From contig NZ_CP041405.1 of assembly GCF_007066085.1 (NCBI RefSeq), forward strand, positions 1 through 64,000: a stretch of DNA of 64,000 bases, read 5' to 3'. Below the pieces are notes generated by a model that was not told the DNA's origin, made no database searches, and worked only from the letters and a program-made list of their open reading frames with translations. This stretch comes from Paenibacillus thiaminolyticus (GTDB taxonomy: Bacteria; Bacillota; Bacilli; Paenibacillales; Paenibacillaceae). The position numbers and the translations under genes are program-made. Shown one piece after another: positions 10,268 through 60,687 of this stretch; the first letter of the stretch is position 1, and every line of letters begins with the position of its first letter.

Positions 10268-10366
10268 TCATTCTCCTTCCGTACGCTCTTCCCTATTATA
10301 GCACATAATAATCGGATGACAGGACAAGATAATACTATTTTTGAATAAGAGGATAAGAAAATACGA

Positions 10367-10383
10367 TGAGAAAGCGCTTTATT
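10367..10383 (+). promoter_or_regulatory. Putative cre (CcpA) site upstream of gldA
   Basis: TGAGAAAGCGCTTTATT contains the palindromic core GAAAGCGCTTT that matches strong catabolite-responsive elements of Firmicutes. It lies about 85 bp before gldA, where CcpA repression of glycerol/DHA use by glucose would be expected. Inference from sequence match only. Confidence 0.6.
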
Positions 10384-17707: not shown

Positions 17708-18640
17708 GTGCTTTTAGAAAATTATTATACTGAAAATTATAAAAGCTTTGATGAATGGTTTGAACTGATTAGAAAAGGGGAATTTGTATATCCACAGCTA
17801 AGGATACCTTACGAAGAGTGGCTTGAAGAATATATTGACAACATAAAGACAAAAACAATACACGAAGTAAAAGAACTTTTAAGATGCTTATTAGTTCCAA
17901 TACATCGAAAAATTGATGTTGAGGATTATAAACTGTATCGTACCTTGAAGGATTCTGACCCCCTAAAAATTGAAATGAAAGAATTATTATTAAGTATGGA
18001 CTCAAATGAAATGTACAAAAGAATAGAAAATGGAAACGATGCTTGGGAAGGTTTGACTTGGGTGTTAGAACTATTACCCTTCTCACCTTATCAAGCGGTT
18101 GTTGCATTAGAAGGTTATGCCTATTCCCAGCCTAACCTCCCTGATGATAGGATCATAGGACTTAGCCAGTGTGTAAAAATTATCTATGCTAGATTTATTT
18201 ATCTAAATAAACCGAAAAGAAATCTATTGAAATTACAACCAATTGAATTTGAATGGCTAATTGAATACTTATATTCAAAAATGGGCTACAAAACTCAATG
18301 GACATCTGCAACGAGGGATGGAGGAAAAGATATTATCGCCTCAATTACACGAATAGACGGTGAAGAACGTGTCTATATTGAGTGTAAGTTATACAATACC
18401 ACAGAATTAACTAATAACCATGTTAAATCATTCGCATATACAGTTAATAATGACAAAATCAATAGAGGTGTTATATTCTGCACTGGCTATGCAAGTGCGA
18501 CTCTTAGTAATATTGATCAAAGAATCACCATTATTAATTATGAGAACATCATTTTACTCTTGAATTCTCACTTGGGTAGTGACTGGGATGAGAGACTCGA
18601 AACTATTATAAAACTTCAAAAAAATAAGTTGATTAAATAA
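17708..18640 (+). CDS. Mrr-type restriction endonuclease-like protein
   Basis: 310 residues, GTG start with GGAAG 9 nt upstream. The C-terminal 120 residues are an Mrr_cat PD-(D/E)xK domain: EFEWLIEYLYSKMGYKT, then TRDGGKDIIASI (catalytic Asp), then RVYIECKLYN (the ExK pair), and GVIFCTGYASATL. Mrr nucleases cut modified DNA. The N-terminal ~190 residues are a helical region I do not recognise. It is complete, AT-rich, lies between an IS remnant and a cassette-type repeat, and is probably an acquired defence gene. Confidence 0.75.
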   Translation: MLLENYYTENYKSFDEWFELIRKGEFVYPQLRIPYEEWLEEYIDNIKTKTIHEVKELLRCLLVPIHRKIDVEDYKLYRTLKDSDPLKIEMKELLLSMDSNEMYKRIENGNDAWEGLTWVLELLPFSPYQAVVALEGYAYSQPNLPDDRIIGLSQCVKIIYARFIYLNKPKRNLLKLQPIEFEWLIEYLYSKMGYKTQWTSATRDGGKDIIASITRIDGEERVYIECKLYNTTELTNNHVKSFAYTVNNDKINRGVIFCTGYASATLSNIDQRITIINYENIILLLNSHLGSDWDERLETIIKLQKNKLIK

Positions 18641-30540: not shown

Positions 30541-30592
30541 GTGAATCTATCTATAGGAATTAATAGTGAAGAATCAGTTAGTGAGGTGGAAA

Positions 30593-41193: not shown

Positions 41194-41297
41194 CCTCGCT
41201 CTGCTCCTTATATAAATACTGATGAAGGAAGCAAAGTCCAAGCTATCAGTAGCTGCAGCATAAGATGCGATGTATGGGCGGTAGCGAATTCTCCAGC

Positions 41298-41466
41298 TCT
41301 ATGCAAACAACCGCCATTGTTCATAGTTCAGACTCTGCATAGAGCATCCGGTAAACCTTCCTCGATAATTCATGAGTTCCTCCTTCTGATAGGTCACATG
41401 ATTACTTCGATTTATACTTCTTCGTCGCCTCTCATATTCCTTCTTTCTCTAATTAAGACGCCTCCC
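41298..41466. repeat. Direct repeat flanking the lanthipeptide locus, left copy
   Basis: About 170 bp, roughly 85-90 per cent identical by eye to 53233-53410 and in the same orientation. On the minus strand it holds AGAAGGAGGAACTC before an ATG and a 24-codon frame (NYRGRFTGCSMQSLNYEQWR). An inner inverted pair GCTCTATGCA / TGCATAGAGC is kept in both copies. Confidence 0.8.
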
Positions 41467-41728
41467 ATCTTCCAAACACCGCATCATCACTTCTAAAAGC
41501 ATCTAAACTGGTGTTCATCTCTCAGCCGCTGGTAGATCCGTATGCCGGTATGCCGCTGTTTCCGGGGAAAGCAGGCGAACTTCTTCCAGCCATGTGTCCA
41601 CGATCTCCAGATAGGGCCCCATAACTGGTCTTTTACGCTTTCTTTAAGTATGGATTCTCATAATATGCCTATTTTAGTAAGAATTTATCATAAGCGATTA
41701 TGAAATCAAGAGGTATTATTTCAGAAAT
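41467..41728 (-). pseudogene. IS21-family IstA transposase fragment
   Basis: On the minus strand, about 41640-41512, PVMGPYLEIVDTWLEEV is followed after a shift by PRKQRHTGIRIYQRLRDE. The RKQRHTxxRIYxRL motif is characteristic of IstA. The rest of the stretch to 41728 shows no gene. This dead mobile element borders the lanthipeptide locus. Confidence 0.6.
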
Positions 41729-41890
41729 ACGATATGCTTAATTTCAATTATTTCGTAATCAAACATTTATTTACCAATTAATAAGCTTCCATTACAAATA
41801 ATGGTGTGATAGAATATAATCAGCAGGTAGAAAATGAAAATAGTTATATCTAGTTGTTAATTATACATATATCAGGAAAATAGGGGGGCG
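41729..41890 (+). promoter_or_regulatory. Promoter region copy 1 of the lanthipeptide locus
   Basis: TTACAA (41792-41797) and TATAAT (41815-41820) are 17 bp apart. The whole stretch, from ATACGATATGCTTAATT on, is duplicated at 42618-42760, where it precedes the M16 genes. Here it precedes the decayed copy of the locus. Confidence 0.7.
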
Positions 41891-41969
41891 CTTAACCTTC
41901 ATGGCTCATATTATGCTCGATTCTATTAAAATGTGATTTTAAATTGAAAATAATGGTCATTTTTATATC

Positions 41970-42047
41970 CAGCACAATTTTCTTTTAGATTAGCCATTGG
42001 TGTTTATACAGGGAGTTCAGAAATAATTTTAGCATGAATGGGGGTAG
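41970..42047 (+). pseudogene. 3' scrap of lanKC
   Basis: ATTTTCTTTTAGATTAGCC, GTTTATACAGGGAGTTCAG and AATAATTTTAGCATGAATGG repeat 48436-48509 of lanKC with few changes, including a new TGA. It joins directly to precursor-array spacer sequence (GGTCGACACCAAGT). The stretch 41891-41969 holds nothing recognised. Confidence 0.85.
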
Positions 42048-42108
42048 GTCGACACCAAGTATTCGGTACGGTTAATGAAAGCCAAATTATTTAAAGGAGG
42101 TGAAAAAA

Positions 42109-42234
42109 ATGAATGCCGTATTGGAACTGCAAAAATTAGCGCATGACACTGATGGTAAAGGCCAGGCAGCGGATGCAGGAATCACAACAATCATAACAAT
42201 ATGCTCGGTATTAAGTGTTTATAAGTGCTGCTAA
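42109..42234 (+). CDS. Class III lanthipeptide precursor 1 (upstream orphan copy)
   Basis: 41 residues. AAAGGAGGTG lies 7 nt before the ATG. The leader MNAVLELQKLAHDTDGKGQ carries the LELQ motif that class III synthetases bind. The core region ends CSVLSVYKCC and includes Ser33-x2-Ser36-x3-Cys40, a labionin motif; an extra Cys32 and Cys41 are unique to this copy. Too short for usual gene callers. It lies in the decayed duplicate of the locus, behind its own promoter-like region, so it may still be expressed and modified in trans by LanKC. Confidence 0.88.
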   Translation: MNAVLELQKLAHDTDGKGQAADAGITTIITICSVLSVYKCC

Positions 42235-42282
42235 ATGAAAGCCGAATTTATTCTTGATCAAACCAAGTAACAGTTACTAAAT

Positions 42283-42329
42283 AATTCTGGGTGCTTAGTT
42301 GAGTGGAGTTCAGCAAAGCACCCAGAATT
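42283..42329 (+). promoter_or_regulatory. Hairpin between precursor and methyltransferase remnant
   Basis: AATTCTGGGTGCTT and AAGCACCCAGAATT pair perfectly over 14 bp with a 19-nt loop. No T tract follows. The same hairpin is at 50089-50136. Likely an RNA-processing or attenuation structure. Confidence 0.65.
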
Positions 42330-42368
42330 AACTCATTAAACTCATAAATCATCAAAAATCAAGAGAGG

Positions 42369-42480
42369 CTGATAAATATCGAAAAAGTAGCCAAAAACCC
42401 CGAGCCATTTGAGGAGGGCACACAAGAAATTTGGCTTGATCCAGAATTTAGTAATATCCTTGCGCCAGTAGAGACATATA
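42369..42480 (+). pseudogene. Methyltransferase 5' remnant with internal deletion
   Basis: The start region of the 50177 gene is repeated (KNPEPFEEGTQEIWLDP), then jumps by deletion to the segment around LAPVE and ends. The GTG start is CTG here. A following scrap, 42481-42600, reads LFALLDGELPFKEIDRLKIG in one frame and is not identified. Confidence 0.85.
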
Positions 42481-42617
42481 GGCTCTTCGCTCTACTGGAC
42501 GGGGAACTGCCTTTCAAGGAGATTGATAGATTGAAAATCGGACAAGGGAATTGGTACAGATGCGAGCGATGCGTGGCTCCATGCTGTCACCAGTTCTTTT
42601 TTGTATTTGGGGACCAG

Positions 42618-42760
42618 AATACGATATGCTTAATTTGAATTATTTCGTATTAATAAGCTTCCAGTACAAATAATGGTATGATAAAATATAATAATACAGG
42701 TAGAAAATGAAAGTAATTATACCTAGTTGTGAAGTATACACATATCAGAAAAAGAGGGAT
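42618..42760 (+). promoter_or_regulatory. Promoter region copy 2, upstream of the M16 genes
   Basis: GTACAA (42664-42669) and TATAAT (42687-42692) are 17 bp apart, about 130 bp before the first M16 start. The sequence is a near copy of 41729-41890. This is the likely main promoter of the intact locus. Confidence 0.7.
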
Positions 42761-42820
42761 TTACTTCAACTTTTTTATCAAAAAGAATAACAATAATTGC
42801 CAATGAGGGGGATATAGGAG

Positions 42821-44095
42821 ATGGATGAAATAGCTATTCGTTCGAGTGAACAAAACGGGTTGCACCTTCATCTTTGCAACACAGATAAATTTAAGACAAT
42901 TAGTATAATGTTGACGATGAAGTCACCTCTTCAAAAAGATTTAATTACTGCAAGAGCATTAATTCCCCATATTCTGAATGGAGGTTCAAAAAATTACCCA
43001 CACCATAAGCTAATAAAACAAAAGCTTGATGAGATGTACGGTGCAACTCTTTCCCCAGATGTAAAAAAAGAGGGAGACAATCATATTATATCTTTTAGAA
43101 TGGAGATCCCTGCAGCTCAATATCTTAATGTGACTAATGCGTTACTAGAATCAGCTTTGGATTTATTACACGATATTGTTTACAGTCCCGTTCTTGAAAA
43201 TGGGGTATTTAATTCTTCAATCGTCGAACAAGAAAAGCGCTCCTTAAAGCAACGACTTGCCTCAATGTATAATGAGAAAATGTTATATACTAGTGTTCGT
43301 TTGATAGAAGAGATGTTTGAAGGTGAACCGTATCAGCTTCCTGCATATGGTAGCGAGAAAGATATTGATTCCCTTAGTGATTTATCCATTTATCAAATCT
43401 ATGAAGATCTGCTTCAAAACGATCGGTTTGATTTATACATCGTTGGTGCTTTTAATGAGGATGAGGTTAAACTTATGGTCCATGACGTTTTTTCTGAACA
43501 GCATAACAACAAACCTGTAAATACCATTTCTCCAGCTAGAAAAGATAGAAATGGTATTAAGATTATTCAGGATAAACAGGACGTAAATCAAGGAAAGCTT
43601 CTTTTGGGTTATAGAACTTATTCGACAATACAAGATGAGGATTTTGAAGCTACAAGGTTGGCAAACGCGATTTTTGGCAGATATCCATCTTCCAAATTAT
43701 TCATTAATGTGCGTGAAAAGAAAAGTCTTGCTTATTTTGTATTTTCCCAACTAGAGAGCAATAAAGGGTTGTTATTAACGATGGCCGGAATTGATTTCGA
43801 TAATTATGAACGTGCAGTTGAAATTATAAGAGAACAAGAGTACGCAATGAAAGAAGGTAACTTCACTGAGGATGAAGTTGAACAAGGTAAAGCAATGTTA
43901 ATTAACCTATTACTTGAAGCATATGATACTCCTTTAGGAATTATAGATATATCCATGGAAGCGGTTGATAGCGGGTTTTCAAGTAACATAGTTGATCAGA
44001 TAAACAGAATAAATAGGGTATCCAAAAGCGATGTCATTCGCGCTGCTAACAAATGGGAACTTGATACAATCTACTTTTTAAATAGAAAGGAGTAA
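42821..44095 (+). CDS. M16-family peptidase-like subunit without the zinc motif
   Basis: 424 residues, GAGGGGG before the ATG. Two M16 half-domains can be followed (ARALIPHILNGGSKNYPHHK ... KLDEMYGATL; later LANAIFGRYPSSKLFINVRE and SLAYFVFSQLESNKG). The HxxEH zinc site is missing, so alone it should be inactive. It resembles YmfF, which pairs with the active YmfH. The Arg/Tyr-type C-terminal contact strand is kept. It is 5 bp upstream of an M16 with HxxEH; the pair would form a heterodimeric leader protease for the lanthipeptides. Confidence 0.85.
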   Translation: MDEIAIRSSEQNGLHLHLCNTDKFKTISIMLTMKSPLQKDLITARALIPHILNGGSKNYPHHKLIKQKLDEMYGATLSPDVKKEGDNHIISFRMEIPAAQYLNVTNALLESALDLLHDIVYSPVLENGVFNSSIVEQEKRSLKQRLASMYNEKMLYTSVRLIEEMFEGEPYQLPAYGSEKDIDSLSDLSIYQIYEDLLQNDRFDLYIVGAFNEDEVKLMVHDVFSEQHNNKPVNTISPARKDRNGIKIIQDKQDVNQGKLLLGYRTYSTIQDEDFEATRLANAIFGRYPSSKLFINVREKKSLAYFVFSQLESNKGLLLTMAGIDFDNYERAVEIIREQEYAMKEGNFTEDEVEQGKAMLINLLLEAYDTPLGIIDISMEAVDSGFSSNIVDQINRINRVSKSDVIRAANKWELDTIYFLNRKE

Positions 44096-44100
44096 ATAAG

Positions 44101-45384
44101 ATGGAGTCAATGGTCTATAAAAGAGTACAAGAGACAATATATTATGAAAAGCTCACCAATGGTCTTGAAGTTTTCATACTTCCTAAGAAAGGATTTCATA
44201 AAACATTTGCCACATTCACAACAAAGTATGGTTCAGTAGATAATAAATTTTCAACTCCAGGAAATAATTGTGCCACTCAAGTTCCAGATGGAATAGCGCA
44301 TTTTTTAGAACATAAAATGTTTGAAAGTGAGAAGGTTGATGTTTTTCATACATTTGCAAAACAAGGAGCTTTTGTTAATGCATTTACCAGTTTTACTCGC
44401 ACGGCGTATACATTTTCAGCAACATCTAACATAAATAACAATTTGATAACCCTTCTAGACTTTGTTCAAGAACCATATTTTACGGATGAAAACGTAGAAA
44501 AGGAGAAAGGAATCATTGAACAGGAAATAAAAATGTATCAGGATAGTCCAGACTGGCGTGCTCGATTTGGAATCTTAGAAAATATGTATAAGAGTCATCC
44601 GGTGAAAATTGATATAGCTGGAACAATAACTTCTATCAATCAAATCACTAAAGAGGATTTATTCACTTGCTATAATACTTTCTATCATCCTAATAATATG
44701 TTACTTTTTGTTATTGGGCCTGTAGTTCCTGAAGAAGTAATAAGGCTTATCCGAAGCAACCAGAACCAAAAAACATTTCGAGAACCAACAGAAATTCATC
44801 GAATATACCCCGAAGAAGAAGCAAAAGTGAACAGAAGGTCAAGTATTATGAAGATGCCAGTTGAAACACCTAAAGTGTTAATAGGATTTAAAGAATCTAA
44901 CCCTAAAAGACAAGGTCAAGACATGCTTAAATATGAGTTATCTCTAAATGTTTTACTAGAATTAATGTTTGGTAATAGCTCTGAAGCGTACGAAAAGATG
45001 TATAACAATGGTTATTTAGATGAGACATTTACTTTTGATTATACAAATGAACAGGGCTTTGGTTTTTCGGTAATTGGCGGAAACAGCCAAGAGCCCGAAA
45101 AACTCATAAACATTGTAGATGAAACGATTGTTGGTTTTAAGAAGAAATCAATAAAGAAAGAGGACGTACAACGTGTAATTAAGAAAGAGATGGGTAACTT
45201 CTTAAGAGCCATTAATTCACCTCAATTTATCGCCAATCAATTTACACGTTATCGCTTTAATAAGATGGACCTATTTGAAATTTTGCCAACACTTGAGAAT
45301 CTAATCGAAAAAGAGCTTGAGGAAGTACTCCATCAACACTTTTCTGATATATCCAGAACAACATTAATTGTAAACGGGGATTAA
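44101..45384 (+). CDS. M16-family zinc metallopeptidase (active subunit)
   Basis: 427 residues, AAAGGAG 8 nt upstream. The inverted zinc motif HFLEH is at 67-71 and the third ligand is in E133-x6-E140 (NVEKEKGIIE). Next to the motif lies KMFESEKVDVFHTFAKQGAF, typical of M16B. It resembles YmfH/AlbF. From memory, M16B pairs have been reported as leader proteases of class III lanthipeptides in Paenibacillus (paenithopeptin); the position directly before lanKC supports that role here. Confidence 0.9.
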   Translation: MESMVYKRVQETIYYEKLTNGLEVFILPKKGFHKTFATFTTKYGSVDNKFSTPGNNCATQVPDGIAHFLEHKMFESEKVDVFHTFAKQGAFVNAFTSFTRTAYTFSATSNINNNLITLLDFVQEPYFTDENVEKEKGIIEQEIKMYQDSPDWRARFGILENMYKSHPVKIDIAGTITSINQITKEDLFTCYNTFYHPNNMLLFVIGPVVPEEVIRLIRSNQNQKTFREPTEIHRIYPEEEAKVNRRSSIMKMPVETPKVLIGFKESNPKRQGQDMLKYELSLNVLLELMFGNSSEAYEKMYNNGYLDETFTFDYTNEQGFGFSVIGGNSQEPEKLINIVDETIVGFKKKSIKKEDVQRVIKKEMGNFLRAINSPQFIANQFTRYRFNKMDLFEILPTLENLIEKELEEVLHQHFSDISRTTLIVNGD

Positions 45385-45492
45385 ATTTAATTACTGCTAA
45401 ATTTTTTATATAATACAAAACTAGAGAGAACAGTACTCTATTACTAGAAAATAAAAATATAGTATTAAATAACTAAAAATAATCAGAAAGCG

Positions 45493-45735
45493 TTGACACA
45501 GTCATCTCCAAATGTTACTATAAACTCAATATTATTATTAATGGTAATAATTACTATATTTTCTTACACCATACTTCTAGGCTACTACATTCGTACAGAA
45601 AAGTGGCTAAGTGATTTTATCCCCTTTTGTATGCACATTACAAGCTTATATCTAATCAGCAAGCTTTTTTGTGACAGCCAGACATCTCCAATAGTCAATC
45701 ATAATACTCACATTCAATCCTGTCTCAATCACTAG
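45493..45735 (+). CDS. Possible small membrane protein
   Basis: 80 codons from TTG with only a weak AGAAAG site. Two hydrophobic segments (SILLLMVIITIFSYTILLGY and a second near 45-58). The frame lies between the M16 pair and lanKC and has no recognisable family. The stretch 45736-45925 contains only a coding-like scrap (GILPEEYVRKCCGK) before the lanKC region. Could be chance. Confidence 0.35.
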   Translation: MTQSSPNVTINSILLLMVIITIFSYTILLGYYIRTEKWLSDFIPFCMHITSLYLISKLFCDSQTSPIVNHNTHIQSCLNH

Positions 45736-46003
45736 ATTTACCTTCCATAATAAACCATGCTAGAGGGTTTATAATAACTGAGATAGGACACACCCATGTT
45801 GCTTCCCTTATTACAGACTAGGTAGTATTACATTATAAAAAATTTCCAAGAGCAAAAAAAGAGATTTCCGATATCACGATTTCAAATCCTTTTATTGGCA
45901 TCTTACCTGAAGAATATGTAAGGAAATGTTGCGGAAAATAGGCGATATTTCCCTATACATATGGAATATACATAGAGAAAGAATAAAAAATGGGGGGATA
46001 TGT

Positions 46004-48610
46004 ATGGAAGGAAATATGCTTTATCATCAGTACATGAAACCGGATTCAGAATATTACGAAAAAATGAGCGCGATAGAAAAGGCATATGAAGTGAATGAGA
46101 TTCCTGATACATATGATGTTATTTCAGACAGTGACTCCGTTTGGAAGCACTATCATTTCAAGGGATTAACACTACCAGAACAGGGATGGAAAATTCATGT
46201 AACTGCAACATTTGAAGATTCACAGAGTGTGCTAGAAAAGGTTGCTCGATTATGTATAGATAGAAAAATTGAGTTCAAGCACCTTAAGGATAGAAACAGT
46301 TTTATTGAGATGAATTCGAAAAATGCTAATCGTGCTTCTTCTGGGAAATTTATAACAATATACCCTATTAATAATGAAAGCTTTGTTGAATTGTTGGAAT
46401 TGATTTCTTCAACAATTCAGGATTTTCAAAAAGGACCTTATATTCTTAATGATAAGAGATGGAAGAATAGCAATGTATTCTATAGATATGGAGGATTTAA
46501 AACTATAATTAATGAACATGGCGAACATTGCATTAGAGATGAGCAAGGAAATTTAATTAAGGATCAAAGAACTCCTTTTTATCAGGTTCCTGACTTTGTA
46601 AAGGATTTCGATGATTATCTGAATACCATTAATAATGACTTGGAAACTAAAGCGGAAGGCAATTTAGAGAAATATGATATTGAAACTGCACTTACCTATA
46701 GTAATGCTGGTGGGGTATACCGTGCGACTCGAAAGAAAGATAATATGAAAGTGATTATCAAGGAGGCCAGACCAAATGCTGGTTTAGATGGGGCAGGTCA
46801 AGATGCCTTATCCAGGCAAAAAATTGAATATGATGCCTTAAAAAAACTTAAAGATGTACCCGGTGTTGTTAATTTGATTGAGTATTTCCAAGAATGGGAA
46901 CATTACTTTTTAGTAGAGGAATTCATAGAAGGGCAAGACTTAAGGCAATGGATTGCCCGAACTTTTCCATTCGTTAAAGACAGTGAACTTATAAGGGATC
47001 ACGCTAAAAACGTTAAAAAGATACTGTTACAACTTTTCCCGCTTATAGATCATATGCATCAAAATGGAGTAGCTATGGGTGATTTGCAACCATCAAATGT
47101 AATGGTAACCGAGGACTTAACCGTTAGGATAATAGATTTTGAAACTGCTATGCCTGTAAACTCTGAAGACAACCCTAGTATGGCTACGACTGGATTTGTT
47201 TCGCGAGAAATGAAAGTTAGTGGTGCAAGAGATTGGTTCGGATTAAAGAAAATTGTAATGTTTTTGGTGCTTCCAGTCCTTTCGTCAGAAGACTTAGAGG
47301 GGTATCTACAATCTAACCATCATAATTGGATAAAAGAAAACTATGGAGATTCATTTTATCGTTTCATTGTAGATTTACAAGAAAAATGCAATAAGAGAAT
47401 AAATGATTATCAACAGTATACGCCTAAAGAAATTAACCTTAGTGATCAGTCAAGTGACTTTAACATCTCGTCTATTATTTATAAGTTAATAAAAGGAATC
47501 GAAAATAATTTAACCAATGATGAAAGGTTCATTAACGGTGACATTCGTCAGTTCATGATGAGCGGGGGGAAATTTAACTTTTTGACTGGAGGAAGTGGCA
47601 CCGCTTTTACACTTACTAAACAACAATCTAAAACTGTAGAAGTAGATAACTGGATTCAAAGTTTTTTATTAGACAATTTAGCTCGAATTGAAGACAATGG
47701 ATTATTGACTGGAAAGACAGGAATATTGGCTTTGCTTTATGCAAAAGGTTATAAAGAAGTTGTCTTTAATGAAGTGAGGGTTTTAAAAGATAATATTAAT
47801 GAAACTAATATTTCTTTACGCTCTGGTCTTTCAGGGATAGGTTTATTCGTAATTAGTTTATACCTGGAAACAGAAAACAAGGAATATTTACAATTTGCAA
47901 TAGAAATAGAAGAATTAATTGACTTTAACAGAGTTAAAGGTGAACCGTTAAGAGTTAATGACTGGATGGCGGTTGATATAGGTGCAATTGATGGATTATC
48001 TGGGGTATCGCTGTTTTATTCAGCACTTTATTCAGCGACCAATAATAAGAAGTATCTAGAAAAGGCTGAGTTAGTACTAAAGGAAGATTTAGAATCAACA
48101 AAAAAAGATGATGTAAGTGGTGTATTACAAACATTGGATAAGAGAAATCGCCTATTGCCTTATCTTTCTGGAGGATCTATTGGAATTGCTATTTCAATTT
48201 GGTTTTTAAATCATGTCAGTGGACAAGACCTTTATAGAGAAGAGATGGATGCGGTTTCAAAATTATCAAAGATTTGTTGTACAATTAGTGGAAGCTTATT
48301 TGATGGCGCAGGTAGTTTTCTTTTAATCCCTTCTATGATGGAACATGGTGAAAATCGCGAGGAAATTGTTAGTGAGGTATTGAAGTTACTTAATCTCTTT
48401 TTAATTGAGAAGAATGGTTATTATGTATACCCAGGACAATTTTCTTTTAGATTAGCCGATGATGTTTATACAGGAAGTTCAGGAATAATTTTAGCATTAA
48501 TGGGGGTAGTTAAAGATAATCCACTCTATTGGTTACCATTGATTAATTCGGATGAATTTCTAGAAAAAACAAAGGCCAAGGCTCTAGTAGTCACTAGTGA
48601 ACAACGGTGA
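46004..48610 (+). CDS. lanKC: Class III lanthionine/labionin synthetase LanKC
   Basis: 868 residues from the ATG at 46004, which follows GGGGGG by 6 nt; the frame is open from 45926 but that start has no ribosome site. Order of domains: phospho-Ser/Thr lyase-like region (1-215), Ser/Thr kinase (about 225-480) with Lys253 in VIIKEA, catalytic loop GDLQPSN (359-365) and DFE (378-380) in place of DFG, then a LanC-like cyclase (530-868) with GLSGIGLF, DGLSGVSLF, GGSIGIAI, GAGSF and TGSSGI repeats. The zinc Cys-Cys-His set of true LanC is absent, which defines class III. It phosphorylates, eliminates and cyclises Ser/Cys in the precursors encoded downstream. Confidence 0.93.
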   Translation: MEGNMLYHQYMKPDSEYYEKMSAIEKAYEVNEIPDTYDVISDSDSVWKHYHFKGLTLPEQGWKIHVTATFEDSQSVLEKVARLCIDRKIEFKHLKDRNSFIEMNSKNANRASSGKFITIYPINNESFVELLELISSTIQDFQKGPYILNDKRWKNSNVFYRYGGFKTIINEHGEHCIRDEQGNLIKDQRTPFYQVPDFVKDFDDYLNTINNDLETKAEGNLEKYDIETALTYSNAGGVYRATRKKDNMKVIIKEARPNAGLDGAGQDALSRQKIEYDALKKLKDVPGVVNLIEYFQEWEHYFLVEEFIEGQDLRQWIARTFPFVKDSELIRDHAKNVKKILLQLFPLIDHMHQNGVAMGDLQPSNVMVTEDLTVRIIDFETAMPVNSEDNPSMATTGFVSREMKVSGARDWFGLKKIVMFLVLPVLSSEDLEGYLQSNHHNWIKENYGDSFYRFIVDLQEKCNKRINDYQQYTPKEINLSDQSSDFNISSIIYKLIKGIENNLTNDERFINGDIRQFMMSGGKFNFLTGGSGTAFTLTKQQSKTVEVDNWIQSFLLDNLARIEDNGLLTGKTGILALLYAKGYKEVVFNEVRVLKDNINETNISLRSGLSGIGLFVISLYLETENKEYLQFAIEIEELIDFNRVKGEPLRVNDWMAVDIGAIDGLSGVSLFYSALYSATNNKKYLEKAELVLKEDLESTKKDDVSGVLQTLDKRNRLLPYLSGGSIGIAISIWFLNHVSGQDLYREEMDAVSKLSKICCTISGSLFDGAGSFLLIPSMMEHGENREEIVSEVLKLLNLFLIEKNGYYVYPGQFSFRLADDVYTGSSGIILALMGVVKDNPLYWLPLINSDEFLEKTKAKALVVTSEQR

Positions 48611-48627
48611 TATGATTACATGTTTAG

Positions 48628-48768
48628 CTTGCAAAATAAGCGCATGACACTGATGGTAAAGGCCAAGCGGAGGATGCAACAGTCACAACAATAATAACGA
48701 CTCTAGCAACTATTTGGTCGACACCAAAGTTTTTCGGTAAGGCTAGAATGAAAGTCAAATTAATTTAA
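48628..48768 (+). pseudogene. Decayed precursor gene
   Basis: The leader code from Gln8 on (AHDTDGKGQ) is present, but the start and first seven codons are gone and CAAAATAAGCG lacks bases needed for the frame. The tail reads ATVTTIITTLATIWSTPK and has no Cys. It ends next to the ribosome site of the following gene. Confidence 0.8.
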
Positions 48769-48781
48769 TGGAGGTGAAAAA

Positions 48782-48928
48782 ATGAACGCCGTATTGGAAT
48801 TACAAAAATTAGCGCATAACACAGATGGTAAAGGCCAAGCAATAGATGTAACACCAACAACGACTGTATTTCCACCGCCTATTTATTCAACTGTTAGTGT
48901 TAGTGCTTGGGAGTGTTACAAAAATTAG
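48782..48928 (+). CDS. Class III lanthipeptide precursor 2 (Pro-rich divergent core)
   Basis: 48 residues, GGAGGTG upstream. The leader is standard (His12-Asn13). The core is unlike the others: PTTTVFPPPIYSTVSVSAWE then CYKN. Ser36, Ser39 and Ser41 precede Cys45; Ser41-x3-Cys45 fits a lanthionine but the first Ser of a labionin motif is Val38, so the ring type is unclear. Its stop (TAG) lies within the leader of a truncated precursor (48916), so the end of the protein was created by a deletion. Confidence 0.75.
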   Translation: MNAVLELQKLAHNTDGKGQAIDVTPTTTVFPPPIYSTVSVSAWECYKN

Positions 48929-49044
48929 CGCATGACACAGATGGTAAAGGCCAACCAGCGGATGTAACACCAGTAATAACAATTACAAGAACAATATCAG
49001 ATACTTGTTGGTCGACACCAAGTAATCAAAGCCAAATTATTTAA
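48916..49044 (+). pseudogene. Precursor gene lacking its start
   Basis: The frame from LQKLAHDTDGKGQ on is open to 49044 with core PVITITRTISDTCWS and a read-through into spacer. The first seven codons and ribosome site are missing, because the preceding gene is fused to it out of frame. Not translatable as it stands. Confidence 0.8.
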
Positions 49045-49057
49045 AGGAGGTGAAAAA

Positions 49058-49198
49058 ATGAACGCCGTATTGGAATTACAAAAATTAGCGCATGATACAG
49101 TTGGTAAAGGTCAAGCAGCGGATGTAATACCCACAATAACAACGATTACAAATACTACTAGGTGGTCGCTAACAAGTAATTTTTTGTGCCGCCAATGA
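49058..49198 (+). CDS. Class III lanthipeptide precursor 3
   Basis: 46 residues, AAAGGAGGTG upstream. The leader has Val15 where others have Asp. The core ends RWSLTSNFLCRQ: Ser37-x2-Ser40-x3-Cys44, a full labionin motif, with Trp36 beside it. The N-terminal part of the core is Thr/Ile-rich (IPTITTITNTT). Confidence 0.87.
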   Translation: MNAVLELQKLAHDTVGKGQAADVIPTITTITNTTRWSLTSNFLCRQ

Positions 49199-49234
49199 AA
49201 GCCAAATTAAGATTATTTAAAGGAGGTGAAAAAA

Positions 49235-49369
49235 ATGAACGCCGTATTGGAATTACAAAAATTAGCGCATGACACTGATGGTAAAGGCCAAGCTGATGTA
49301 ATACCCACAATAACAACGATTACAACTACTAGGTGGTCGCTAACAAGTAATTTTTTGTGCCGCCAATGA
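49235..49369 (+). CDS. Class III lanthipeptide precursor 4
   Basis: 44 residues. Same ring region as precursor 3 (SLTSNFLC), with a slightly shorter hinge (GQADVIPTI) and one Thr/Asn pair less. Leader MNAVLELQKLAHDTDGKGQ. A duplicate of precursor 3 that has since drifted. Confidence 0.87.
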   Translation: MNAVLELQKLAHDTDGKGQADVIPTITTITTTRWSLTSNFLCRQ

Positions 49370-49405
49370 AAGCCAAATTAAGATTATTTAAAGGAGGTGA
49401 AAAAA

Positions 49406-49531
49406 ATGAACGCCGTATTGGAATTGCAAAAATTAGCGCATGACACTGATGGTAAAGGCCAAGCAGCGGAAAGAACAATCACAATCATCACTATAGGAAA
49501 GTCGACATTAAGTGTTTATAAGTGCAATTAA
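49406..49531 (+). CDS. Class III lanthipeptide precursor 5
   Basis: 41 residues. Core TITIITIGKSTLSVYKCN with Ser33-x2-Ser36-x3-Cys40, the labionin motif. Hinge AERT; leader with HDTDGKGQ. Same ring sequence as precursors 1 (in part), 6 and 7. Confidence 0.88.
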   Translation: MNAVLELQKLAHDTDGKGQAAERTITIITIGKSTLSVYKCN

Positions 49532-49564
49532 TGAAAGCCAAATTATTTAAAGGAGGTGAAGAAA

Positions 49565-49690
49565 ATGAACGCAGTATTGGAATTGCAAAAATTAGCGCAA
49601 GCCACTGATGGTAAAGGCCAAGCAGCGGAAGCAACAATCACAATCATAACTGTAGGAAAGTCAACCTTAAGTGTTTATAAGTGCAATTAA
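49565..49690 (+). CDS. Class III lanthipeptide precursor 6
   Basis: 41 residues. Leader variant LAQATDGKGQ and core TITIITVGKSTLSVYKCN. The gene and spacer are one unit of a 159-bp tandem repeat. Labionin motif at Ser33, Ser36, Cys40. Confidence 0.88.
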   Translation: MNAVLELQKLAQATDGKGQAAEATITIITVGKSTLSVYKCN

Positions 49691-49723
49691 TGAAAGCCAA
49701 ATTATTTAAAGGAGGTGAAGAAA

Positions 49724-49849
49724 ATGAACGCAGTATTGGAATTGCAAAAATTAGCGCAAGCCACTGATGGTAAAGGCCAAGCAGCGGAAGCAACAATCAC
49801 AATCATAACTGTAGGAAAGTCAACCTTAAGTGTTTATAAGTGCAATTAA
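49724..49849 (+). CDS. Class III lanthipeptide precursor 7
   Basis: Identical protein to precursor 6, exactly 159 bp downstream, with an identical spacer and ribosome site. A recent tandem duplicate that raises dosage of one product. Confidence 0.88.
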   Translation: MNAVLELQKLAQATDGKGQAAEATITIITVGKSTLSVYKCN

Positions 49850-49882
49850 TGAAAGCCAAATTATTTAAAGGAGGTGAAGAAA

Positions 49883-50011
49883 ATGAACGCAGTATTGGAA
49901 TTGCAAAAATTAGCGCAAGCCACTGATGGTAAAGGCCAAGCAGCGGAAGCAACAATCACAATCATAACTATTGGAAAGTCGACACTAAGTGTTTATCAGT
50001 GCAATTCATGA
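49883..50011 (+). CDS. Class III lanthipeptide precursor 8
   Basis: 42 residues, third 159-bp unit. The core differs at Ile31 and Gln39 (SVYQC) and ends CNS because the stop moved. Labionin motif kept. Confidence 0.88.
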   Translation: MNAVLELQKLAQATDGKGQAAEATITIITIGKSTLSVYQCNS

Positions 50012-50088
50012 ATCTTCAAAAATTAAATAGGATTTAACTGAATGCAAAAGTTCAATTTTTGATCAAAGCAAGTAACAATTACTAAAAT

Positions 50089-50136
50089 AATTCTGGGGTG
50101 CTTAGTTGAGTGGAGTTCAGCGAAGCACCCAGAATT
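50089..50136 (+). promoter_or_regulatory. Hairpin between the precursor array and the methyltransferase
   Basis: AATTCTGGGGTGCTT and AAGCACCCAGAATT pair over 14 bp with one bulged G. The hairpin and flanks are duplicated at 42283. Without a T tract it more likely protects or tempers the precursor message than ends it fully. Confidence 0.65.
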
Positions 50137-50176
50137 CACTCATTATACTCAAAAATCATGAAAAAATCAAGAGAGG

Positions 50177-51019
50177 GTGATAAATATCGAAAAGTTATTA
50201 GAAATAGCCAAAAACCCCGAGCCATTTGAGGAGGGCACACAAGAAATCTGGCTTGATCCAGATAGAGCTGATCTTGTTTTGAAGGGTCACTTTGACGAGA
50301 ATATACCTGGTGGTAGCAGGGATAGCAGTTTTATTGATGAAACTATTGATTTTATTAATAACCTTGCACCAGTAGAGAAATATAAAAAGGTTATTGACTT
50401 AGGTTGTGGTCCAGGGCTCTATTCACAAAGATTAGCAATGAGGGGTTACGATGTTGTAGGTGTAGATTTTAACCAAAATTCCATTGACTACGCAATTAGG
50501 GAAGCTCAAGAAAAGAATTTATCAATAGATTATAGGAATGAAGATATTACTAATATTGACCTAGAAAATGATTTTGATTTAGCCCTTTTAATTTATCAGA
50601 TTTATGGTGTGTTTAATCCAACTAAGAGAAAAAAAATACTTAGCAATATCCACCGTGGGTTAAAACCGGGAGGATTAGTATTATTAGACGTGTTATCAGA
50701 CACTAGTTATGAAAAGTTCGAACCAAAAATTGTGTGGGTATTATCTAATGAAGGTAGCATATTTTCAGATAAGAGCCATTTAACTTTATACGCGGCACTT
50801 AAGTATCCTAATAAAGTTACTGTGGAAAGAAGTATTCTAGTTTTTGATGATGGTGAGTTAGTAAATTATAATTATTGGAATCAAAATTTCACTATTGAAG
50901 ATTTAGAAAAAGAAGCGGATGAAGCAGGATTTACTCTTGAAAAGGTATATGCAGATGTTAATGGTGGAGAATACGTCAACAATAGCGAGTCCTTCGCCGC
51001 AGTTTTAAAAAAGAAATAA
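50177..51019 (+). CDS. SAM-dependent class I methyltransferase
   Basis: About 280 residues. SAM motif I VIDLGCGPG (72-80), acidic motif VGVDF after YDVV, then EDITNIDLENDFDLALLI and a LKPGGLVLLDVL post-motif. The family includes small-molecule and N-terminal methylases. It sits between precursors and exporter and may methylate the lanthipeptide, for example its N-terminus; this is inferred from position. The start is unusual: GTG at 50177 lies inside the GAGAGGGTGAT ribosome site. The ATC at 50186 is at a better distance. Confidence 0.85.
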   Translation: MINIEKLLEIAKNPEPFEEGTQEIWLDPDRADLVLKGHFDENIPGGSRDSSFIDETIDFINNLAPVEKYKKVIDLGCGPGLYSQRLAMRGYDVVGVDFNQNSIDYAIREAQEKNLSIDYRNEDITNIDLENDFDLALLIYQIYGVFNPTKRKKILSNIHRGLKPGGLVLLDVLSDTSYEKFEPKIVWVLSNEGSIFSDKSHLTLYAALKYPNKVTVERSILVFDDGELVNYNYWNQNFTIEDLEKEADEAGFTLEKVYADVNGGEYVNNSESFAAVLKKK

Positions 51020-51041
51020 TCAGATAAGAAAATCCCATTTA

Positions 51042-51101
51042 AGGATTCAGTGTTTGCAAGAATAGGAATAATTTAATCCCCTGGCTCTAACACTGAATCC
51101 T
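51042..51101 (+). promoter_or_regulatory. 13-bp perfect hairpin before the ABC gene
   Basis: AGGATTCAGTGTT and AACACTGAATCCT pair with a 34-nt loop, between the methyltransferase stop and the exporter gene. No T run. Possibly an attenuator or processing site. Confidence 0.6.
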
Positions 51102-51196
51102 AAAGGTAAAATGTCTAAGGATATGAAAGTTTCACATATTTAATATGTGTTTAAATAAGTCGTTCAAAAATAAAAATAAAAGGATAAACATAAAAT

Positions 51197-52957
51197 ATGA
51201 AAAGACTCACTTTAAAACAATTTATCGGTATTCTAGATAAGTACAGACCTTCTGGGTGGTTACTTTTCATAGCACTTGTATTATCGATAATTCAAACGGG
51301 TATATCTTTAATAATTCCATTAGTTTCCATGGAACTTGTCGATTTATTGGTTGTAGAAGAATTTAACATTTTCACTTTATTAGGCTTGTTACTTCTTTTT
51401 ATGTTCCAAGTTTCACTTTCTGGTATTTCTCTTTATATGATGATTTATATTGGTGAAGGAATAATTGTCCGCCTAAGAGAAGATTTATGGAGAAGAGTAG
51501 TAAGATTTCCTGTTAAATTTTTTGATGCAAATAATTCAGGAGAAATAATGAGTAGAATTACAAATGATACTATGGTAATGAAGAATTTCTTTGTAGAGCA
51601 TTTGATTCCTTTCTTTACAGGGCTAATTACTATTACAGGTTCTCTTTTCATTCTTTTTCTAATAGATTGGAAGATGGCGCTTATTTTTTTACTAGTTTTT
51701 CCTGCTGCATTTTTGGTTCTAAACCCACTTGGTAAAAAGATGTACAGGGTTTCCAAAGATGTGCAAACTGAAACAGCCTTATTTCAAGGAAATCTTAGCA
51801 GGGTATTAAGTGATGTTCGTTTAGTAAAGCTTTCAGTTGCTGAAAATGAAGAAGCTGTTCAAGGAGCTAAGCGCGCAAGAAGATTATATAAATATGGCTT
51901 AGAATCTGGGAAAGTAATAGCAGTAGTATCACCTCTTATTACAACAACGCTCCTTATTGTATTAGTTGGCATATTTGGTTATGGAGGCTATCAAGTTGCA
52001 ACAGGCTCTTTGTCAGCAGGAGCTTTAGTAGCTATAGTATTTTATATATTCCAAATTATGACTCCTGTAACATTAATGGCTCAATTTTTCACTCAAGCCC
52101 AAAAAGCAATGGGAGCAACAGAACGTGTCAATTCATTATTAGTAGAAGAGCTTGAAGAAGTTGTTGTATCCAACAAAGAAAATGTCAAAGAAGACATTGA
52201 AGCTGGAATTACCTTCTCAAATGTTGTATTTTCTTATAGTGAAAAGGGAGAAGTATTAAATAATATTAGCTTTACAGCTAAGGAAGGTAAAAAGACGGCA
52301 ATTGTGGGTGAAAGTGGAGTCGGTAAAACAACTTTATTCTCATTACTTGAACGATTCTATATTGTTGACAGTGGGGATATTTTTTATAATGGTAGATCGA
52401 TATATTCTCATGAATTAAGTGAATGGAGAGAGAAGATTGCATACGTTAGCCAGGATACCCCTATTATGGAAGGCAGTATTAAGGACAATTTAGTGTATGG
52501 CATAAAGAAAGATATAAGTGATTCCATTATTTTTGATGCACTAAAGAGTGCAGACTTAGACTCTTTTGTGTCATCACTGCCTCAAGGACTAGATACGGAG
52601 GTTGGTGAAAAAGGTATCCGCTTATCAGGTGGACAAAAACAAAGAATAGCAATTGCTAGAGCCATCATAAGAGATCCAAAAATACTACTATTAGATGAAG
52701 CTACAGCTCATTTAGATAGTCAATCTGAGGCACTCGTTCAAGAAGCTTTCAATAATTTAATGAGAGATAGAACAACGATAATTATTGCACACCGTCTTTC
52801 AACTATTAAGGATGCAGACTGTATTGTAGTTATACAGGAAGGTAAAGTATCAGGGTGTGGTTCACATTACGAATTATATGAAACAAATCAGTTATATAAG
52901 AACTTATTTAATCAGCAAACATTTTCTAAAGAATTGGTTCTTAGTGGGAATGTGTGA
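51197..52957 (+). CDS. ABC exporter with fused membrane and ATPase domains
   Basis: 586 residues. An N-terminal exporter domain of six hydrophobic helices (about 15-310) is followed by the ATPase: Walker A GESGVGKTT (about 371), signature LSGGQKQR (476), Walker B ILLLDEATAHLD (497), and IIAHRLSTIKDADC. No N-terminal C39 peptidase domain is present, consistent with leader removal by the M16 pair. It is the exporter of the lanthipeptide product, by position. It would act as a homodimer in the membrane. Confidence 0.9.
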   Translation: MKRLTLKQFIGILDKYRPSGWLLFIALVLSIIQTGISLIIPLVSMELVDLLVVEEFNIFTLLGLLLLFMFQVSLSGISLYMMIYIGEGIIVRLREDLWRRVVRFPVKFFDANNSGEIMSRITNDTMVMKNFFVEHLIPFFTGLITITGSLFILFLIDWKMALIFLLVFPAAFLVLNPLGKKMYRVSKDVQTETALFQGNLSRVLSDVRLVKLSVAENEEAVQGAKRARRLYKYGLESGKVIAVVSPLITTTLLIVLVGIFGYGGYQVATGSLSAGALVAIVFYIFQIMTPVTLMAQFFTQAQKAMGATERVNSLLVEELEEVVVSNKENVKEDIEAGITFSNVVFSYSEKGEVLNNISFTAKEGKKTAIVGESGVGKTTLFSLLERFYIVDSGDIFYNGRSIYSHELSEWREKIAYVSQDTPIMEGSIKDNLVYGIKKDISDSIIFDALKSADLDSFVSSLPQGLDTEVGEKGIRLSGGQKQRIAIARAIIRDPKILLLDEATAHLDSQSEALVQEAFNNLMRDRTTIIIAHRLSTIKDADCIVVIQEGKVSGCGSHYELYETNQLYKNLFNQQTFSKELVLSGNV

Positions 52958-53232: not shown

Positions 53233-53410
53233 CAAGGCTCTATGCAAACAACCGCGTTCATAGTTCAGACTTTGCATAGAGCATCCGGTAAACCTTCCTC
53301 GATAATTTATGAGTTCCTCCTTCTTCTAGGTCACATGATTACTTCGATGCTATACTTCTTCGTCTGCGCTCCTCATATTTCTTCTTTCTCTAATAAAGAC
53401 GCCTCAACTC
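53233..53410. repeat. Direct repeat flanking the lanthipeptide locus, right copy
   Basis: Matches 41298-41466 in the same orientation with small indels. The minus-strand start ATG of the left copy is ATA here (AACTCATAAATT), so the small frame would be dead in this copy. Confidence 0.8.
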
Positions 53411-58223: not shown

Positions 58224-58907
58224 ATGAAAATTTTGTTGGTGGAAGATGATAAAACGATCGCGTCCGGACTTGAATATTCACTGCAGCAGGATCATTTCTC
58301 TACGGTGCTTTGCCATGATGTTGCATCGGCCAAACAGGTGATTGCGGAAGATCTGGCTCAATTCGCATTATGTCTGTTTGATTTATCCCTACCCGATGGC
58401 AGCGGCTATGAATTGTGCAAGCTCGTCAAAGAGCGGAGAGATATTCCGGTCATCTTTTTAACGGTGATAGATGATGAGGTCAATGTTGTCATGGGGTTGG
58501 ATATGGGGGCGGATGATTATATTACGAAGCCTTTTCGCGTTCGCGAGCTTCTGTCGCGAATCAAATCCGTCTTACGGAGATACCATAAGCCGTCTCAGAC
58601 CAGGTCGATCATCGAGATAGATCAGGTTCGCATTAATATGCTCGAGGGAAAGGTGTATAAACACGGCGCGGAAATTCCGCTGACGGCTTTAGAGTATCGC
58701 TTGCTGCTCATTTTCGCCAATCATATTGGGCAGGTGCTTACGAGAAACCAGCTGCTGGAGCAGATCTGGGATGTCGCAGGGGACTTCGTGAATGATAATA
58801 CATTAACGGTGTATATCAAAAGGCTGCGGGAAAAGCTGGAGGATCAACCGCAGCGTCCGACGCTCATCAAAACCGTCCGCGGTCTGGGCTATAAGGTTGG
58901 TGATTAG
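58224..58907 (+). CDS. OmpR-family response regulator (Bce-type)
   Basis: 227 residues. Receiver domain with Asp8/Asp9, phospho-acceptor Asp53 (LFDLSLPDG) and Lys in ITKPF; C-terminal winged helix (ALEYRLLLIFANHIGQVLTR, DNTLTVYIKRLREKLE). The ATG has AGGATGAG upstream. It is adjacent to its kinase without a gap. In BceRS-like systems the regulator activates the neighbouring ABC genes in response to antimicrobial peptides. Confidence 0.93.
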   Translation: MKILLVEDDKTIASGLEYSLQQDHFSTVLCHDVASAKQVIAEDLAQFALCLFDLSLPDGSGYELCKLVKERRDIPVIFLTVIDDEVNVVMGLDMGADDYITKPFRVRELLSRIKSVLRRYHKPSQTRSIIEIDQVRINMLEGKVYKHGAEIPLTALEYRLLLIFANHIGQVLTRNQLLEQIWDVAGDFVNDNTLTVYIKRLREKLEDQPQRPTLIKTVRGLGYKVGD

Positions 58908-59909
58908 ATGCTGCGGAACCGGGAGATTCAAATTTTGCTGCTAACGATGGGCTTCATCAGCTTGACGGCGACCGTTGCTGCCGCTTGGATATCGCCAGTC
59001 GCTGCGGCGCTCGTGTTCGCTGCCTCCGCTTTGCTTATGGGGAGCAGCCTCGTATTCACGCGGTGGAGATATCGCGAACTCGAAAAGCTGTCTTCCTATT
59101 TGCGCCAAATTAGCAGCGGCAATGATTCGCTTGATGTTCGCGATAATCAAGAAGGCGAGCTTAGCATTTTGAAGAATGATATTTATAAAGTGACACTCAT
59201 GTTGTCTGAGCACCGCTCTCTTTTACAGCAAGATAAAATCCAACTGACCGATGCCATTTCTGATATCTCCCATCAGCTCAAAACGCCGCTGACTTCCATG
59301 ACGGTCATGGCCGATTTGTTGCGCGATCCCGAGCTGCCTCAAGCGAAAAGAACGGAGTTTACGCGCAATATTCGGATTCAGCTGGAACGAATCGATTGGC
59401 TGGTCACTTCCTTGCTGAAGCTCTCGAAAATTGAAGCAAAGACGGTTTCCTTTAAAAAAGATCGGGTACCGGTGAACATACTCGTGCAAAAGGCGTTAGA
59501 GCCTGTTCTCATTCCGATGGATATTAAAGATATATCGGTTTCGGTTCAGGGAGAAGATACCGTCGCATTTGATGGCGATCTCCAGTGGACGGCCGAAGCG
59601 CTCATCAATATTTTGAAGAACTGTGTCGAGCACACGGAGGAAGGCGGAGCGATCGCCATTTCTTTTTCGGAAAATGCGTTATTTACGGAACTCATTATCG
59701 AAGATAATGGCAAAGGAATCCCGAAGGAAGATTTGCCCTATATTTTTAAACGGTTTTATAAAGGGAAGAATGCGAGCGAGGGCAGCATCGGCATTGGTCT
59801 GTCGATGGCTCACAGCATGATTACAAGTCAGAACGGTGTGATTGACGTAGCGAGCGGCAAGGATAAGGGGACGCAGTTTCGGATTAAGTTTTACAAGCAG
59901 GTGATTTAA
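58908..59909 (+). CDS. Sensor histidine kinase (Bce-like, short sensor)
   Basis: 333 residues. Two N-terminal TMs with almost no outside loop, the mark of intramembrane-sensing kinases. H-box SDISHQLKTPLTS with His122, N-box NILKNCVEHT, G1 EDNGKGIP, F-box IFKRFYKG and G2 GIGLSMAHS are all present. It starts immediately after the regulator stop. It probably senses through the ABC transporter encoded next. Confidence 0.92.
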   Translation: MLRNREIQILLLTMGFISLTATVAAAWISPVAAALVFAASALLMGSSLVFTRWRYRELEKLSSYLRQISSGNDSLDVRDNQEGELSILKNDIYKVTLMLSEHRSLLQQDKIQLTDAISDISHQLKTPLTSMTVMADLLRDPELPQAKRTEFTRNIRIQLERIDWLVTSLLKLSKIEAKTVSFKKDRVPVNILVQKALEPVLIPMDIKDISVSVQGEDTVAFDGDLQWTAEALINILKNCVEHTEEGGAIAISFSENALFTELIIEDNGKGIPKEDLPYIFKRFYKGKNASEGSIGIGLSMAHSMITSQNGVIDVASGKDKGTQFRIKFYKQVI

Positions 59910-59926
59910 GCCCAGGTGACTAAACT

Positions 59927-59957
59927 GTCATTTTCGGAGTCACTGGAAAGTCATTTT
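59927..59957 (+). promoter_or_regulatory. Direct repeat, likely response-regulator site
   Basis: GTCATTTT at 59927-59934 and 59950-59957 are 23 bp apart start to start, about two helical turns, upstream of a TAAAAT -10-like box. Position before the ABC genes fits the OmpR-type regulator. Inferred. Confidence 0.5.
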
Positions 59958-60003
59958 AGACAGATAAAATGAGTTCCATCAGCACATCTATGGAGGTTGT
60001 ATC

Positions 60004-60687
60004 ATGACCATTTTACAAATCGAACATCTGTCTAAAATTTACGGGAAGGGCGAATCATCGATTAAAGCGCTTGATGATGTTTCTTTTTCGGTCCAAAAAG
60101 GGGAGTTCGTCGCCATTATCGGTCCATCCGGATCAGGGAAATCGACGCTGCTGCATCTGTTAGGCGGCGTGGACCGGCCGACCAGCGGCAAAATCCTCGT
60201 TGATAATACGGACATGTACAGCTTGAATGAAACGCAGTTAGCGATTTTTCGACGCAGGCAAATCGGCTTGATCTATCAGTTCTACAATCTGATTCCCGTC
60301 CTGACGGTGGAAGAAAATATTACGCTGCCGCTCTTGCTTGATAAGCAGAAGGTGGATCGGAAGCAGCTTGACGATCTCGTCAAGACATTGAGCCTGCAGC
60401 AGCGTCTGAACCACCTGCCGAATCAGTTATCCGGCGGACAGCAGCAAAGAGTCTCGATTGGCCGAGCGCTCATTGGCAATCCGGCGATTATGCTGGCGGA
60501 TGAGCCCACCGGCAACCTGGACAGCAAGAATAGCAGCGAGATCATCGACTTACTGAAAATGTGCAACAAAACCTATCAACAGACGCTGATCGTGATTACC
60601 CATGATGAACGGATTGCTCTGCAAGCCGACAGGATCATCTCGATTGAAGACGGACGGATCGCCAAGGATGAGGTGATTCGCCCATGA
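60004..60687 (+). CDS. ABC transporter ATP-binding protein (BceA-like)
   Basis: 227 residues, GGAGG 6-8 nt upstream. Walker A GPSGSGKST (40-48), signature LSGGQQQR (142-149), Walker B IMLADEPTGNLD. The stop overlaps the permease start by ATGA. Part of the two-component/ABC module. Confidence 0.92.
   Translation: MTILQIEHLSKIYGKGESSIKALDDVSFSVQKGEFVAIIGPSGSGKSTLLHLLGGVDRPTSGKILVDNTDMYSLNETQLAIFRRRQIGLIYQFYNLIPVLTVEENITLPLLLDKQKVDRKQLDDLVKTLSLQQRLNHLPNQLSGGQQQRVSIGRALIGNPAIMLADEPTGNLDSKNSSEIIDLLKMCNKTYQQTLIVITHDERIALQADRIISIEDGRIAKDEVIRP

Follow-up and report, generated by a model that had tools for sequence, protein, structure and literature searches.

The analysed window is a 64,000-nucleotide stretch of Paenibacillus thiaminolyticus DNA (contig NZ_CP041405.1, positions 1 to 64,000; genome G000 in our comparisons), and at 42109-52957 it carries a class III lanthipeptide locus in which a lone precursor gene, two M16 protease genes, one lanthipeptide synthetase gene (LanKC), a tandem precursor array, a methyltransferase gene and an ATP-binding cassette (ABC) exporter gene follow one another. 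The locus is very probably the published paenithopeptin (ptt) cluster, from P. thiaminolyticus or a very close strain, with its lone precursor, A1, being the survivor of a second tandem cluster copy that has otherwise collapsed. The biosynthetic system itself has been characterised before. What the analysis adds concerns evolution: the cluster appears to have doubled, decayed unevenly and travelled among distant Paenibacillus species, while one precursor gene survived its own enzyme.

Genes of the locus and the precursor array

The genes and two broken precursors are listed below, each intact precursor being recognised from its translation and from NF038154, the NCBIfam model for class III lanthipeptides.

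42109-42234 (+): orphan precursor A1, 41 aa, predicted paenithopeptin A precursor (PttA1), also supported by its core mass
42821-44095 (+): P1, M16B subunit without HxxEH (PttP1; YmfF-like), with R298/Y305; NF047422 at 479.5 bits, PF05193, motif check
44101-45384 (+): P2, catalytic M16B subunit (PttP2; YmfH-like), HFLEH at residues 67-71; NF047421 at 619 bits, PF00675, motif check
46004-48610 (+): LanKC, class III lanthipeptide synthetase (PttKC), 868 aa; NF038151, PF25816, PF00069, PF05147
48640-48723 (+): broken precursor relic lacking the leader start; NF038154 at 24.6 bits, profile positions 11-36
48782-48928 (+): precursor A2, core S-x2-S-x5-C, leader end QAID
48916-49026 (+): broken precursor relic without MNAVLE, overlapping the end of A2; NF038154 at 38.4 bits, profile positions 7-39
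49058-49198 (+): precursor A3
49235-49369 (+): precursor A4, leader end QADV
49406-49531 (+): precursor A5
49565-49690 (+): precursor A6, same protein as A7
49724-49849 (+): precursor A7, same protein as A6
49883-50011 (+): precursor A8
50177-51019 (+): S-adenosylmethionine-dependent methyltransferase (PttMT); PF13649
51197-52957 (+): ABC exporter without a peptidase domain (PttT); PF00664 (ABC_membrane) and PF00005 (ABC_tran)

LanKC scores 790.4 bits against NF038151 (cut-off 575), which identifies it as a lyase-kinase-cyclase synthetase, and the inactive and active M16 subunits lie side by side inside the cluster in the layout of an M16B lanthipeptide protease pair (Prot_819/Prot_176). In the exporter, the two domains listed are the only ones above the Pfam cut-off. 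The original prediction, made from the letters alone, had described a single 868-aa LanKC, seven intact tandem precursors 3' of it and one orphan 5', an LELQ motif in every leader, an inactive/active M16 pair, and a methyltransferase with a peptidase-less ABC exporter downstream; all of this holds, with MNAVLELQKLA present in all eight leaders. It did not mention that A6 and A7 encode identical proteins, that two further precursors are broken, or that the orphan lies within a relic cluster copy. A genome-wide search with PF05147 missed LanKC; a direct scan of the protein matches the model at 47.3 bits. Two more LanC-like proteins of the same genome, at C1:796614-797810 (L001) and C1:3212935-3213897 (L002), match PF05147 at 210 and 171 bits, lie in open frames of 457 and 1023 aa, and probably belong to further lanthipeptide clusters.

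Four precursors submitted to the NCBIfam scan, one of them without its first Met, all scored between 50.9 and 56.3 bits against the NF038154 cut-off of 22, and a genome-wide scan returned ten matches, namely the eight intact precursors and the two relics. Every precursor combines an LxLQ leader with an S-x2-S-x(2-5)-C core, the range published for such cores and one that covers A2 (PMC8960859); the S-x2-S-x3-C form occurs in all but A2. Mean identity among the eight genes is 92% in the leaders (first 57 nt) and 64% in the remainder, so that a conserved leader precedes a variable core. Because A6 and A7 are the same protein, the tandem genes hold six distinct sequences, or seven with A1. The core of A2 has a relative, P0019, in another P. 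thiaminolyticus record; that A2 arose by accidental joining of a core to the following relic was not retained as the sole reading, given that the core of P0019 is nearly identical.

LanKC would act on the LELQ-leader precursors, dehydrate Ser and Thr of the core, and close a single labionin (S-x2-S-x3-C) in each core. For class III lanthipeptides it is established that the leader is recognised through LELQ. A heterodimer of P1 and P2 would then cleave the modified precursor at the leader end, with aminopeptidase trimming to follow, and the ABC protein would presumably export the product.

Among 394 genomes of the family, NF038154 matched 19: the window genome ten times (eight intact, two relics), P. 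profundus six, genome G001 five, G313 four and G184 three, with one or two matches in each of the remaining 14. The count for P. profundus is a lower bound, as contig ends interrupt its array. The claim that many precursors per LanKC are uncommon is thus supported within the sampled family and for the NF038154 model, the only class III precursor family counted: ten matches here against at most four in any of the 391 genomes other than the three with ptt clusters (the window genome, P. profundus and G001). The published survey lists 115 precursors in 48 clusters of this group (PMC8960859). Outside this comparison, locus L007 of Bacillus sp. B1-b2 (9674-10375) holds four near-identical class III precursors together with an in-cluster M16 pair.

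The relic of a second cluster copy

The segment that surrounds A1 is made up of degraded counterparts of other parts of the cluster, including a hairpin that recurs behind the array.

41726-41885 (+): copy-1 relic of the region that leads the cluster and is supposed to hold its promoter; 78% identity across 161 columns to 42618-42758 before P1, E 7e-37
41930-42047 (+): relic of the LanKC 3' end, copy 1, frame broken; 80% over 118 nt
42282-42330 (+): hairpin after A1, copy of the post-array hairpin (repeat D6, 93%); fold -29.8 kcal/mol, z -7.1
42354-42445 (+): relic of the methyltransferase 5' end, copy 1; repeats D11 and D7, 97% each, to 50162-50193 and 50202-50262
50089-50136 (+): hairpin separating the array from the methyltransferase; fold -24.4 kcal/mol, z -4.3

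Within the LanKC relic, positions 41937-42047 match the LanKC 3' end at 87.5% over 112 columns (E 1e-34), and three stops fall in the LanKC-matching frame of 41930-42055. The following 42072-42445 matches 49846-50262 in order, from the array end through the hairpin to the methyltransferase start (80% over 420 columns, E 4e-109). The leading-region piece is closer to the corresponding segment of P. profundus (89.5%) than to the window's own region before P1 (81%). Read from the sequence, the interval from 41.7 to 42.4 kb is a collapsed relic of a second cluster copy, comprising the leading region, the LanKC tail, A1, the hairpin and the methyltransferase head; because the pieces stand in cluster order, A1 is best read as the last precursor of that copy. 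On this reading a duplicated leading region now precedes A1, whose peptide would rely on the other copy for LanKC, proteases and exporter, and the gene looks as if it has outlived its own synthetase. Between the methyltransferase relic and the P1 leading region, the stretch 42446-42617 has a 95% match in P. profundus and none elsewhere in the cluster.

Both hairpins listed above may cap the precursor transcripts. Sequence inspection finds no T run behind either of them, and no Rfam family reached its gathering threshold anywhere in the window, so that neither is a catalogued RNA at that stringency.

Two other genomes bear on this history. P. profundus (G013; contig G013:C64, locus L034) carries a longer relic of the same make-up, with LanKC pieces, methyltransferase pieces and a precursor piece whose match begins only at leader residue 6-7. 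In G001 (locus L032), two copies stand head to tail: the first with P2, a LanKC relic, a precursor relic, the methyltransferase and the exporter, the second with P1, LanKC, three precursors and a methyltransferase relic. Its P2, methyltransferase, exporter, P1 and LanKC are each open to a single terminal stop; this sister genome retains two cluster copies whose losses are complementary. When the LanKC 5' parts of G001 copy 2, the G001 copy-1 relic and the window are compared with one another, identity is about 94% throughout, which suggests a duplication of roughly the same age as the divergence of these clusters; the short LanKC relics from the 3' end add no resolution on its age. The precursors of G001 (L032, 17746-18269) have very different cores, ending WSTQSQHHC, behind a nearly identical leader.

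We infer that one duplication took in the whole cluster, and likewise the sequence of events and the use of the promoter. The main competitor for the duplication, though not for the identity of the cluster, is that the A1 piece is a mosaic of separate short segmental copies around insertion sequence (IS) elements. The relic in the window is just about 0.7 kb, its parts are joined by deletions, and transposases of the IS110 and DDE types accompany the G001 cluster, all of which would favour a mosaic; the parts of the relic, however, sit on one strand and in cluster order, P. profundus has the same parts in a longer relic, the tandem copies of G001 jointly span all genes, and the mutual LanKC identity of about 94% is what one old duplication predicts. 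We therefore hold the mosaic to be unlikely. The word stem 'duplicat' was not found in the main text of PMC8960859, and our searches found no publication on duplication of a class III lanthipeptide cluster or on reciprocal gene loss in lanthipeptides, which does not prove that none exists; the duplication history of this known cluster did not turn up in print in those searches.

Probable identity with the paenithopeptin cluster

For P. thiaminolyticus NRRL B-4156, ptt is described as comprising PttKC, PttA1 standing apart, PttA2-A7 together, PttMT and PttT, with PttP1/PttP2 downstream of PttA1; another protease pair is encoded at a different genomic site (PMC8960859). The gene order of the window, A1-P1-P2-KC-array-MT-T, agrees with this naming of parts. 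H67, E70 and H71 of P2, as well as R298 and Y305 of P1, are the residue numbers mutated in that study, and the leader end of A1, QAAD, is the published sequence. The predicted A1 core, AGITTIITICSVLSVYKCC, with all five Ser/Thr dehydrated (-5 H2O), gives an [M+2H]2+ of 949.49, against a published m/z of 949.5 (2+) for paenithopeptin A' (PMC8960859). As a control, six cut sites and any number of dehydrations were combined for all eight precursors, and only A1 came within 0.15 of 949.5; P0001, which at 95% identity is the closest A1 relative from another record, would give 962.50. The fully dehydrated, unmethylated cores of A2, A3, A4, A5, A6/A7 and A8, counted from the residue after the D/E, have predicted [M+2H]2+ values of 1372.17, 1302.69, 1245.67, 1002.07, 952.53 and 994.03. 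Judged by the order of its genes, the residue numbers and the mass of the product, the locus is either ptt itself or its counterpart in a very close strain. These matches, together with related precursors recorded under P. thiaminolyticus, point to that species as the source of the window.

The guess that the locus might belong to the paenithopeptin family is therefore confirmed more strongly than it was worded. The novelty that had been placed in the array is correspondingly weakened, because the published cluster already has a lone A1 and an array A2-A7, and the seven tandem genes here reduce to six distinct sequences; eight is a high number, against seven precursors already listed in the paper. 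The chemistry is known as well, since modification, labionin formation and P1/P2 processing have been published for ptt: the paper reports the labionin, a disulfide in paenithopeptins A-E, endo- and aminopeptidase activity of PttP1/PttP2, removal by this pair of the leader from LanKC-modified precursor, and processing of PttA2-A7 in vitro (PMC8960859).

Several points weigh against the combined account of identity and duplication. The window has seven tandem genes where six (A2-A7) are published, a difference that would be explained if the publication counted distinct sequences. The published Q-A-(A/V)-(D/E) motif of PttA2-A7 fits six of the eight leaders and not those of A2 (QAID) and A4 (QADV), which slightly lowers our confidence in the ptt assignment, and this assignment was judged by mass, residue numbers and architecture rather than by sequence alignment. 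The duplication reading is weakened by the shortness of the window relic, by an additional G001 precursor that lies 3' of the first exporter gene, has lost the S-x2-S-x3-C end and is not foreseen by the simplest two-copy model, and by the failure of the G001 and window sequences preceding P1 to align (44%). A separate class III cluster of a near-relative strain, in which A1 gives paenithopeptin A and A2-A8 encode different, undescribed peptides, could draw on the eight intact genes against seven published, on the two leaders off the motif and on variant precursors (P0019, P0002) in another P. thiaminolyticus record, but we regard it as very unlikely, given that the mass of the A1 core, the QAAD leader end, the order of the genes and the protease residues all agree with ptt, that seven distinct sequences equal the published number and that PttA2-A7 were already processed in vitro.

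All products reported in vivo, paenithopeptins A-E, derive from A1 (PMC8960859), and the duplication history of the ptt cluster offers a testable account of why they come from the orphan. We put it forward tentatively, at less than even chances: ptt would have been duplicated whole and its copies pared differently in sister species, the first copy in the lineage of the window being reduced to its leading region joined to A1; this fusion, rather than enzyme preference, would explain the A1-only products while A2-A8 stay nearly silent behind LanKC. In G001 the pathway would survive only through complementation of two half-dead copies, with even the protease subunits split between them. Against such promoter capture, a promoter consensus scan found 34 sites where shuffled sequences gave 40.1 expected, hence no excess, and the promoter claim thus derives from the repeat and not from motifs; moreover, the A1 product could just be stabler or more readily detected.

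Among related systems, the bcn cluster of Bacillus nakamurai, which makes bacinapeptins, shares the Pre_24 precursor family, LanKC, methyltransferase and exporter, but has two precursors and, unlike the window locus, no in-cluster protease pair (PMC8960859). P1 and P2 exceed the cut-offs of NF047422 and NF047421, the models for the YmfF/YmfH pair (spelled YfmF/YfmH in NCBIfam). The genome's other YmfH-type protein lies elsewhere (G000:C1:6306860-6308101) and is 48-49% identical to P2, and cluster-borne P2 proteins occupy a branch of their own. In a tree of P2, the cluster-borne proteins (ten loci, from Paenibacillaceae and Bacillaceae) are united in a single group that excludes ten non-cluster YmfH proteins, with support of 99/100 and in 98% of 200 bootstrap trees, in a tree where 7 of the 19 inner branches are weak. 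A comparable single grouping has been published for Paenibacillus (PMC8960859), and we accordingly rejected a single origin of cluster-borne P2 as a new finding.

Movement between species and neighbourhood

The locus, about 12 kb long, is enclosed by direct repeats of 169 bp.

41296-41464 (unstranded): left direct repeat bounding the locus, 90% to 53237-53405
53237-53405 (unstranded): right direct repeat, 90% to 41296-41464

A search of 19 genomes of the genus found any match to the repeat in six, with two near-full copies in the window genome and P. profundus. In G018, which has no cluster at this site, the left flank (to 41463) runs directly into the right flank (from 53237) with one repeat copy; this could be the ancestral empty site or the outcome of cluster loss by recombination between the repeats. 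Integration associated with a tRNA was set aside, as the window contains no tRNA.

Five cluster genes are 97.1-98.3% identical between the window and P. profundus, where the figure for LanKC (97.6%) includes a few hundred columns of P. profundus relic pieces, other relic pieces being excluded. Two other chromosomal regions, one around YmfH and one around another M16 gene, are 74.6% and 72.6% identical, and this disparity indicates that the locus has moved between species. The immediate flanks are also more than 90% identical, so that more than the cluster moved. Of four compared genomes, the closest to the window in both regions is G011 (95.0% and 93.9%), which has no NF038154 precursor match and gave only two kinase-domain matches in the LanKC search. 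That search matched all 60 genomes, nearly always through kinase-domain proteins; full-length matches above 90% were confined to the window genome, P. profundus (98%) and G001 (91%), with four others full-length at 32-34%. The G001 cluster lies at a different genomic place, where it adjoins the IS110- and DDE-type transposases.

Downstream of the locus, 58224-63281 holds a response regulator, a histidine kinase, an ABC ATPase and an FtsX-type permease in a row, which may resemble a peptide-sensing and detoxification module. Near the cluster on its other side are an APH-family phosphotransferase (PF01636; 39694-40794, minus strand) and a PF00144 serine hydrolase (30566-32086, plus strand), and 17708-18640 encodes a protein with an Mrr-type restriction endonuclease domain (PF04471).

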